Origin: Treponema brennaborense DSM 12168 | GTDB taxonomy: Bacteria > Spirochaetota > Spirochaetia > Treponematales > Treponemataceae | DNA: 64,000 nt | Assembly: GCF_000212415.1 (NCBI RefSeq) | Contig: NC_015500.1 | Span: 1,550,001 to 1,614,000 of the forward strand | Direction of reading: 5' to 3' | In this document: positions 15,282 to 33,086 of the stretch, piece by piece | How the letters are laid out: every line of letters begins with the position of its first letter | Numbering within the stretch: position 1 is the first letter of the stretch | Made by a program: the position numbers and the translations under genes | Notes under the pieces: model-generated | Databases searched by the model: none | What the model was told of the DNA's origin: nothing | The model's input: only the letters and a program-made list of their open reading frames with translations

Positions 15282-17387
15282 ATGAAATCTGTGACGGAAA
15301 AAATTATTACGTTGGCGATTCTCGTATCGTTTTCGGCATGTGCGAACGATACCATTTCAAAAATCGTCGAAATCCCGCAAACGGTACCGCTCACGTATAC
15401 AATCGGAATCACCACCCACGCCCTCGGATCAGTCGTTCTCCAACCGCAAAAAGAGACATACGCAGCCGGAGAAACCGTCTTGCTTACCGCCAAACCCGCA
15501 GCCGGCGCCCGATTCACCGGCTGGAAAGGATATAAAGAAACAACCGAAAATCCGCTCGTGCTGAAAATCACAGAAAACGTTACCCTCGTACCGCTGTTTG
15601 AAGCGGAAAAAACGTATACGCTTGCATTGAACCAGGACCCGGGCGGCAAAATTATCAGATCGAATGATAAAACCGTTTTTTTGCCGGACGAAAAATGCAG
15701 CCTTGAAGCGATTCCTTTGGACGGCTATACGTTTGCCGGCTGGGACGGAGACGTGAAAAGTGCGGACCCTCGGATATTCATTACGTTTACGCAAAACATG
15801 CAATTATACGCTTCATTCCAAAAAATTCCCACTGAAATAACGTATACGCTCTCAGCATCCGCAGACAGCGGCGGAACGATACGGACAACTCCGAAGAAAA
15901 CGACGTATTACAGCGACGAATACGTTACCTTGCAAGCGCAGCCGGATTCGGGATATCAATTTTACGAATGGAACGGCGACGTTCCGGCCGAACTGAAAAA
16001 TACTGCGGAAATAACGATTCAAATGACCAAAAACATGAATTTGTCAGCCCGATTCATAAAACGGAACTGGACGACCGTCATTTACATGGCGGCGGATAAC
16101 GACCTTGAAAGCGCGGCGATACAGGATATGAACGAATTGGAAGGAATCGATTTTACCGGCAGCAGCCACACCGTGCTGGTGCTGCTCGATCGGGCCGTCG
16201 GGTACGACGGAACGAACGGAGACTGGAGCGACACCCGATTATACGAAATAAAACGCGACCCTGCCGGAATAAACGGAACTATCATATCTCAAAGAATCGC
16301 CTGCCCGCAGCTCGATTTATACACCGATCGGAACACGGAATTGGACATGGCCGACCCGAACACATTGCGCTCGCTGCTCTCGTTCGTAACCGCCTCGTAC
16401 AGCGCAGATCAATACGCCCTCATCATTTGGGGCCACGGCACCGGCTGGAGAAGCGCGAGTTTGGAAAGCGAACGCAGTGAGGATTCCAAACTCGGTAAGC
16501 AAGACGGCGAAAGCCAGATTGCGGCGGGTCACGGAACCGGCTGGAGAAGCGACAACGCGAATCCTGCAGGGAGGTCCCCCATGAAAGCAGTCGCCGTAGA
16601 CGACTATTCAAACAGCTACATGAGCTTACCTCAGCTGAAAAGCGCCCTCGACGGCACGAAGATAGACCTCATCGGATTCGACACCTGCTTCGGCGCCCTC
16701 ATCGAATGCGTATACGAACTGAAAGACAGCACTACCTGGTTCGTCGGCTCGGAAGGAGTCACCCCGTCCACAGGCTGGGACTATGAAAAACTGTTCACCC
16801 GATTTTTTACCACGGACAAAAGCGCGGAATCCTTTGCCGACAGCATTATAGACCAATTCGCCGCCCAATACGGAGGAGTGGAAAAAGCGACGATATCGAA
16901 AATAAAAGCGGCGAACGCCGGAACACTGAAAAACGCACTCGACGAGTTTGCACTCGCTTTGAGTGCAACGATAACGGACAGCGCGAGCAGACAAACCGTA
17001 TTCCGTACGGTATTTAACGACACCGAATCGTATTCGTACACGCAATACCCGTGCGACCGATACGTAGACGTGTACGCGCTCGCCTCCCATTACAAAACCG
17101 ACGGCACTGCAAGAGTTGCCAACGCCGCATCGTCGTTGGCAGCGGAGGTTTCGAACACGGTAACGCGCAGCTGGAGCGCATCGGGCTCACCGGACGTAAA
17201 ACTGGGCGTACATCTGATACCGCTGACCGCGCGCGACGTTGCAGCCGCCCGACACGCCGAAGCATACATACAAGGAAGCGGCGCACAATGGCAAAGTGCG
17301 TTCGTCAAGGAAAGCACCGGCTGGGTACCGACGGCAGCAGGTACAGGTTTGAGTCTTTTAGACGTATTGTTTTATAAAACGTTTTAA
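15282..17387 (+). CDS. Exported clostripain-family (C11) cysteine protease with repeat modules
   Basis: This 701-residue protein has an N-terminal signal with a permissive lipobox (FSAC near residue 20). Three InlB B-like/Flg_new-type repeats follow (about 36-105, 108-180 and 186-258), each with G-x-V/I, YAAGETVLLTAKP and F-x-GW patterns. The C11 catalytic domain starts at NWTTVIYMAADNDLE (about 264), with the His motif WGHGTGW at H385 and the Cys motif FDTCFGA at C469. The His motif is duplicated (second copy H417) around an inserted palindromic element at 16455-16526, adding 32 codons. It lies directly before the Rhs toxin and may process exported proteins, which is inference. Confidence 0.88.
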   Translation: MKSVTEKIITLAILVSFSACANDTISKIVEIPQTVPLTYTIGITTHALGSVVLQPQKETYAAGETVLLTAKPAAGARFTGWKGYKETTENPLVLKITENVTLVPLFEAEKTYTLALNQDPGGKIIRSNDKTVFLPDEKCSLEAIPLDGYTFAGWDGDVKSADPRIFITFTQNMQLYASFQKIPTEITYTLSASADSGGTIRTTPKKTTYYSDEYVTLQAQPDSGYQFYEWNGDVPAELKNTAEITIQMTKNMNLSARFIKRNWTTVIYMAADNDLESAAIQDMNELEGIDFTGSSHTVLVLLDRAVGYDGTNGDWSDTRLYEIKRDPAGINGTIISQRIACPQLDLYTDRNTELDMADPNTLRSLLSFVTASYSADQYALIIWGHGTGWRSASLESERSEDSKLGKQDGESQIAAGHGTGWRSDNANPAGRSPMKAVAVDDYSNSYMSLPQLKSALDGTKIDLIGFDTCFGALIECVYELKDSTTWFVGSEGVTPSTGWDYEKLFTRFFTTDKSAESFADSIIDQFAAQYGGVEKATISKIKAANAGTLKNALDEFALALSATITDSASRQTVFRTVFNDTESYSYTQYPCDRYVDVYALASHYKTDGTARVANAASSLAAEVSNTVTRSWSASGSPDVKLGVHLIPLTARDVAAARHAEAYIQGSGAQWQSAFVKESTGWVPTAAGTGLSLLDVLFYKTF
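16455..16526 (+). repeat. In-frame palindromic element, class I copy A
   Basis: This 72-bp insert in the protease gene begins GCGAGTTTGGAA and contains TTCCAAACTCGGTAAGC, a perfect 10-bp inverted repeat. A second small hairpin, GGC-GAAA-GCC, follows. It is bounded by two 24-nt direct copies of the HGTGWRS codons that differ at synonymous positions. Confidence 0.8.
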
Positions 17388-17402
17388 CCAAGGAGAGAGA
17401 AG

Positions 17403-32857: not shown

Positions 32858-33064
32858 TTTCCGGCACAAAGTAATGCGCCTATCCTTTATTTCCGATTTT
32901 ACTTGCTTGATTATCTGTAAAGTTCAATGGATTGAAGCAGGTGTTAGGCAATTTCTATTCTACAAGCATTGGGATTAAGTTAATATTATTTGACTGTTAT
33001 TGACCTCGAGATCCATTTTGTCTTCGACTTTTCGCGAGTTTTTGCGAAGCAAAATACTTGGTAA
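32858..33064. other. Non-coding remnant after IS copy 2
   Basis: About 200 nt of low-GC sequence without a credible gene. It contains class I element E from 33034. No Rhs homology is recognisable before it. Confidence 0.5.
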
Positions 33065-33086
33065 GAGAACCGTAAGGTTCTCGACA
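33034..33086 (+). repeat. Class I palindromic element copy E
   Basis: GCGAGTTTTTGC-GAA-GCAAAATACTTGG, then AAGAGAACC-GTAA-GGTTCTCGAC. Nearly identical to copy C, but one reading frame is closed by TAA. Confidence 0.8.

Follow-up and report, generated by a model that had tools for sequence, protein, structure and literature searches.

The palindromic repeats in a 64,000-nt stretch of the Treponema brennaborense DSM 12168 genome (positions 1,550,001 to 1,614,000 of NC_015500.1; hereafter the window) are most likely copies of a short, non-coding and non-autonomous dispersed element of Treponematales, which is propagated as a discrete unit and is probably a member of the superfamily of the Rfam motifs TD-1 and TD-2. 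Its copies fold into hairpins with compensatory changes and have sharp ends; they are dispersed, can be matched with empty sites, and some of them are carried in frame within protein-coding genes.

The five copies (A–E) listed by the initial annotation were all recovered in the window (Table 1). From 5′ to 3′, the unit is composed of a first hairpin made up of (G)CGAGTTT, a variable stem with loop and AAACTCG; the linker GTAA; a second hairpin consisting of G, a variable stem with loop and C; and a 3-base tail, GAC, for which GGC, GTC and GTT are also seen among the window copies. Its size is approximately 45–70 bases, with copies A and D representing a long form (70–71 nt) and B, C and E a short form (49–52 nt).

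Table 1. Copies of the element and associated features in the window (R1 and R2, covariance models defined in the text).
Feature	Position	Strand	Description
Copy A	16455..16525	+	Long form, 71 nt, in frame in C11 (clostripain-like) protease gene; R1 84.7 bits, R2 57.5 bits
25-nt direct repeat adjoining 5′ end of copy A	16430..16454	+	23/25 identical to 16526–16550; both differences synonymous
25-nt direct repeat adjoining 3′ end of copy A	16526..16550	+	
Host gene of copy A	15282..17387	+	701-aa protein, Peptidase_C11 (Pfam PF03415, E 3e-46) and InlB-type repeats
Copy B	25222..25273	+	Short form, in frame near Rhs core end, net +51 nt; R2 42.5 bits
Copy C	25329..25377	+	Short form, in frame, sharing the Rhs ORF of B, net +48 nt; R2 49.3 bits
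Host ORF of copies B and C	25074..25631	+	Rhs core end and variable tip (fragment)
Copy D	30976..31045	+	Long form, 5′ end of truncated Rhs fragment; R2 55.1 bits
Copy E	33034..33085	+	Short form, outside any ORF; R2 40.5 bits
Rhs core end paralogue	22940..23180	+	Empty at B/C sites
Second Rhs core end paralogue	27571..27780	+	Empty at B/C sites
Third Rhs core end paralogue	29366..29600	+	Empty at B/C sites
TD-1/TD-2-like hairpin composite just upstream of copy D	30786..30908	.	Sub-threshold: Rfam TD-1 30.1 bits, TD-2 30.2 bits, E 0.18–0.5

DNA folding of the five window copies gave z-scores of -3.2 to -9.9 relative to shuffled sequences. Copies were aligned under covariance guidance, as MAFFT alone misplaced the variable stems. 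In an alignment of 33 copies from many genera, standard pairs filled 97.3% of the pair cells (76.9% after shuffling), both sides had changed at 15 of the 19 pairs, and the covariation score reached 0.344 vs. 0.086 for shuffled and at most 0.05 for slid controls (28–46% paired), figures that are biased towards the model because the alignment was fitted to it. So large a contrast, together with the full replacement of stem sequences between copies (CGAG..CTCG to GCAG..CTGC or GGAG..CTCC), leaves little doubt that the hairpin structure is real. The linker reads NTAA in 29 of the 33 copies (GTAA in 21, TTAA in 6, others in the rest), and the tail is GAC in 19 and GTC in 2.

A strict pattern, CGAGTTTN{4,34}AACTCGGTAAG, matched nine times in the 3.06-Mb genome (a single contig of 3,055,580 bases) and its reversed control not once, so the repetition is not due to chance. 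Two covariance models were used, R1 built from nine copies and R2, a broader one, from the 33 copies; partial reverse-strand matches of the long form (2–40 of 70) were left out of R2. In the genome the models detected 12 copies; B and E come on top of these, having been missed by the quick first step of the whole-genome scan. Contrary to the refuting case named by the initial annotation, the element is not confined to this island: copies lie far from it and in further treponemes. Across the order Treponematales there are approximately 90 copies, and these counts are lower bounds, as only some of the candidates were scored in the genome scans and E-value calibration was short. With R2, copies were found in 15 of 40 genomes of relatives, the richest being G039 (23–24 copies), G016 (11), G007 (8), G022 (7) and G048 (6). 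In a sample of 150 genomes from across the phylum, 8 matched, all of them in Treponematales and none outside the order. Of 59 genomes searched, the window's alone had the long form (R1 above 70 bits), a sign of recent local amplification. Stem sequences diverge between copies of a single genome, and much of the spread is therefore old. An identical or near-identical insertion sequence of the Mutator family (IS256-like; window 27738–29129 and 31466–32857, L011 from 4782, L012 4065–5458) is present in all three islands with long-form elements.

In-frame insertion had been presented as the rule, and lengths divisible by three as a property of the element; neither view held. The majority of copies are intergenic, and the lengths of 92 copies are evenly distributed modulo 3 (28/34/30), indicating that frame preservation is an outcome of selection and not of design. 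Two of the three forward frames of the element are free of stop codons. Automatic ORF calls placed 24 of the 92 copies inside ORFs, many of these spurious or antisense, and host genes are claimed here only where there is homology or a clear paralogue.

The ends of the element are sharp. In many pairs at unrelated sites the similarity stops within about 0–5 nt of both ends, with offsets of 0 and 0 nt for B and E (90% identity over exactly the element), 0 and 0 for D and a copy in L012, 2 and 0 for two G029 copies, and within 1 nt for several G039 pairs. Because similarity at unrelated sites stops at the element ends, the element spreads as a unit. The tRNA boundary is an independent landmark for the 3′ end: in G039, 16 of 24 copies end 0–2 nt from a tRNA gene, 13 at its 5′ and 3 at its 3′ end, and the contact is always made by the 3′ end of the element, never by its 5′ end. 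The tRNA-adjoining loci in this genome are L037, L054, L115, L117 and L119–L126.

The 13 elements that abut mature tRNA 5′ ends look like tRNA leaders there. Furthermore, in at least two species the guaA stop codon lies 2 nt from the element end (L011 8427–8429; L132 1642–1644; G007 C48). Positions common to several species, such as the guaA 3′ end, and those beside tRNAs hint that copies are functional or retained, and that selfish spread is not the whole story. It is possible, though on balance not probable, that the copies are structured RNAs or RNA-processing elements, as TD-1 and TD-2, i.e. tRNA leaders, terminators or 3′-end hairpins under selection, with the coding copies being accidental; such a role is also compatible with dispersal. 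The strong covariation would fit it, as would the architecture in common with TD-2 and the loci passing the models of both families (see below), and by crude ORF calls divergent gene pairs are rarer around copies (13) than co-directional (31) or convergent ones (20). Yet dispersal is needed to account for the copies within genes for C11, Rhs, ABC ATPase and HsdS, the first two of which have empty orthologues or paralogues, and a fixed regulatory RNA leaves sharp-ended copies at unrelated sites unexplained. In G034 (L071), a TD-2 element also lies at a guaA end that, judged by sequence, seems to be the same one.

The element might instead be rearrangement debris of Rhs or duplicated islands, marking duplication or truncation junctions and being copied together with its flanks. 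L1, L2 and L3 have 39–58 nt of upstream flank in common, and L8 and L9 about 330 nt; both groups diverge at, or a few nt from, the 3′ end of the element, and D and L8 are located at truncation points. Copy D stands between a stop codon and a 5′-truncated Rhs fragment, with Rhs homology restarting directly after its ...GCGAC. This account is unlikely, as B/E and like pairs have nothing in common beyond the element on either side, and in other genera the copies are spread across many contigs.

Direct repeats that abut the element with a score of 12 or more were found at 6 of 70 single copies (12–46 nt) vs. 0.19% for mismatched flanks. Target duplications measure 25 nt at copy A, about 25 nt at L135 (end of a gene for a PEP-utilising enzyme) and 46 nt at L046 (end of hsdS); one of 35 nt at L058 (end of the argininosuccinate synthase gene) is in an array and therefore falls outside the six. 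With no target duplication at B or C, and long, variable ones at these six sites, no single insertion chemistry fits. By eye, the differences between repeat copies in the coding part are synonymous in 2 of 2 cases at A, 3 of 3 at L135, 2 of 2 at L058 and about 6 of 9 at L046. Mostly synonymous differences would not be expected if a dead copy were simply decaying, but might result if, after insertion, the live gene exchanged sequence with other alleles. Arrays are built as (element + spacer)n, with three 69-nt units in G007 vs. one at the orthologous place in the sister species G008. In L012 (8066–13510) a large gene is duplicated, and one copy, about 1 kb shorter, is truncated precisely where the element's 3′ end lies.

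Several known mobile systems were considered and rejected. Mobilisation by a RAYT/Y1 transposase is contradicted by the lack of any Y1_Tnp transposase in the window's genome and of any association in relatives, where one is present in 5 of 15 carrier vs. 11 of 25 non-carrier genomes. Reverse transcriptase is likewise absent from this genome and not associated with the element elsewhere. Inspected by eye, the integron attC core (GTTRRRY/RYYYAAC) has the wrong polarity. A classical MITE does not fit either, as GCGAG at one end and CGAC at the other do not form inverted repeats, and the flanking repeats vary in length and occur at few copies. Nor are the copies at all likely to be GTAG- or CGTC-superfamily REPs mobilised by RAYT-type transposases. 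The size is similar, a tetranucleotide linker (GTAA) stands at the foot of hairpin 2, the tail has three bases, and CGTC REPs have been reported from Spirochaetes and inside genes (PMC3733652). Against this, the linker is GTAA or TTAA and in none of the 33 copies GTAG, no CGTC tag with a CCA tail was found (tail CCA in 0 of 33), and the Y1_Tnp distribution gives no support.

The proposal of a dispersed palindromic element inserting in frame in unrelated genes was borne out by empty orthologous and paralogous sites, which prove insertion for the C11, Rhs and leader-peptide hosts. The segment contributed by copy A, whose predicted translation includes the peptide ASLESERSEDSK, is absent from six orthologous C11 proteases and from 33 further orthologues in public genomes, and hence is not ordinary protein sequence at this place; the C11 orthologues are nearly all in Treponema. 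WGHGTGW occurs once in each of the 33 orthologues, and the distance from WGHG to the next conserved block, DTC, is 39–74 residues vs. 84 in the window protein. The host gene gained 96 nt, and not the 71 nt of the element, because the 25-nt target stretch (HGTGWRS) now stands on either side of the insert. In the AlphaFold model of the C11 domain (mean pLDDT 82.4), residues 103–141 are the only stretch below 50, so that the insert and the second HGTGWRS look disordered in this prediction. That the segments are normal variation of hypervariable loops and Rhs tips is scarcely credible: the C11 site is indeed a length-variable loop, but the 33 orthologues are without the segment, and the same DNA with covarying hairpins recurs at intergenic sites and in unrelated genes.

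Three Rhs paralogues of the same window are empty at the matching places, without the 51 nt of B and the 48 nt of C. The initial annotation had placed A, C and D in open frames, with gains of 72, 51 and 48 nt. This stood for the frames of A and C; D, by contrast, lies after a stop codon, carries a 1-nt deletion and has no frame open on both sides, and B is in frame instead. The net gains of 51 and 48 nt were found at B and C, respectively, while the first figure gives way to the element and host-gene lengths of copy A. Other features were noted around the Rhs genes. A second palindromic insert family, of the plan TCCAGTCGG-ATTTTTGCGAAGCAAAAT-CCGACGAGTCC followed by a spacer of about 25 nt and another small hairpin, occurs in Rhs copies at window 26669–26752, 31092–31175 and 31370–31427, whereas the Rhs paralogue at 22118 has no such insert. 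Two Rhs fragments have, at matching places (26245–26264 and 30912–30931), a third inverted repeat, TTCAAGGCTWWAGCCTTGAA, and a protein with a NADase-type translocation domain (PF25302) is encoded at 23635–25104, directly after the large Rhs protein.

In-frame carriage was observed in at least six protein-coding positions. Copy L1 (G000 1264210) is in a gene for a double-glycine-type peptide, of which two paralogous leader-peptide genes are without a copy; the filled gene is 72 nt longer and its frame is still open (MKMFLEE-GLYQVYYVFGSP-[ASLETSFRPVSKLGKQGRVAELR]-LNGGYG). All in-frame copies of the window's genome read L-(G/V)-K at the linker. Elsewhere, in L059, an EcfA-like ABC ATPase holds an in-frame copy in its N-terminal loop, with an offset of about 20–25 residues against solved EcfA chains, and another in L044 is near the C-terminus of HsdS. 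Small Gly-rich genes with double-glycine-type leaders were also seen beside a C39 peptidase/ABC exporter and HlyD (L010 8779–14688, L011 1200–7510), likely a bacteriocin-type export locus, and two genes of this cluster carry the element in the leader region.

For the dispersed element that we favour, the following course may be proposed. Copying would occur in trans, by an enzyme or repair route recognising the folded hairpins and the precise 3′ end. Copies that enter genes would persist if the frame stays open and the added peptide falls in a tolerant loop; selection would keep few of these, leaving most copies between genes and often at gene boundaries. A wider proposal, which we offer tentatively and think rather doubtful, is that the TD-1 and TD-2 "RNA motifs" and the element form one superfamily of mobile DNA hairpins with a new entry route, marked by a sharp 3′ end that settles against the ends of genes (5′ ends of tRNAs, stop codons), by long, variable target duplications, and by neither an HUH (Y1) nor a reverse-transcriptase enzyme.

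These results provide a clear further case, outside Rickettsia, of a palindromic repeat adding protein segments without breakage, with insertion proven by empty sites. They also suggest that a dispersed repeat superfamily includes two treponemal motifs catalogued as RNA, with consequences for the way in which these should be studied. The element's 3′ end at tRNA boundaries offers a precise landmark for tracing the mechanism of insertion.

We found no description of treponemal palindromic elements in the literature searched. The earlier view that nothing related had been described in treponemes is nevertheless overturned by Rfam, in which TD-2 (RF03162; clan CL00124 with TD-1, RF03155) is a treponemal family and the closest known one. 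Its 3′ half has the same architecture as the element, GCGAGUUUU..AAAACUCG, a short linker and a long hairpin opening with G and closing C-G, and alignments showed that the central CGAGUUU hairpin, the short linker and the 3′ hairpin of TD-2 are all present in the element. TD-2 differs by an additional 5′ hairpin (ACCGCCAUGGAUGGCGGU) and a linker AA or GAGA; ACCGCCAUGGAUGGCGGU is not in the repeated unit, as similarity between copies ends at GCGAG. Copies A–E gave no TD-2 match at E up to 1, and the best copy of the same genome (1278356) scored 40.7 bits, under the gathering threshold of 48.7. Two loci of G014, on the other hand, pass both TD-2 gathering (58.6 and 58.3 vs. 48.7 bits) and R2 (40.5 and 29.0 bits). 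From the common architecture and these loci, we regard the element as a neighbour of TD-2 that has two hairpins and is able to enter genes, and probably in the same superfamily as TD-1 and TD-2.

TD-1 and TD-2 themselves behave like repeats. In G023 there are 44 TD-1 and 54 TD-2 matches, often overlapping on opposite strands, and from this overlap at many loci the two families seem to be the two strands of one composite. Tandem arrays of TD-1 with a period of about 150 nt occur in G000 (C1:2300530–2300951) and also in G012, G009 and G020, and at L082 a TD-1 copy standing alone has a ribosome-binding site (TAGGAG) at its end, immediately ahead of a start codon.

REPs of the GTAG/CGTC type and those linked to RAYTs are short tagged hairpins that form dimers and arrays and are sometimes intragenic (PMC3733652); the element differs in its GTAA tag, in having no RAYT in its own genome, and in its two hairpins of fixed order and polarity. 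Rickettsia palindromic elements (RPE) are palindromic, dispersed and inserted in frame in unrelated genes (PMC10969869), and the resemblance to them proposed by the initial annotation holds for behaviour: here, too, a palindromic unit is found in frame in a C11 protease, Rhs, a leader-peptide gene, an ABC ATPase and HsdS. RPE differ in their length of about 150 bp, in belonging to an unrelated organism and in their high intragenic share, whereas the element is mostly intergenic, and the likeness is one of behaviour.
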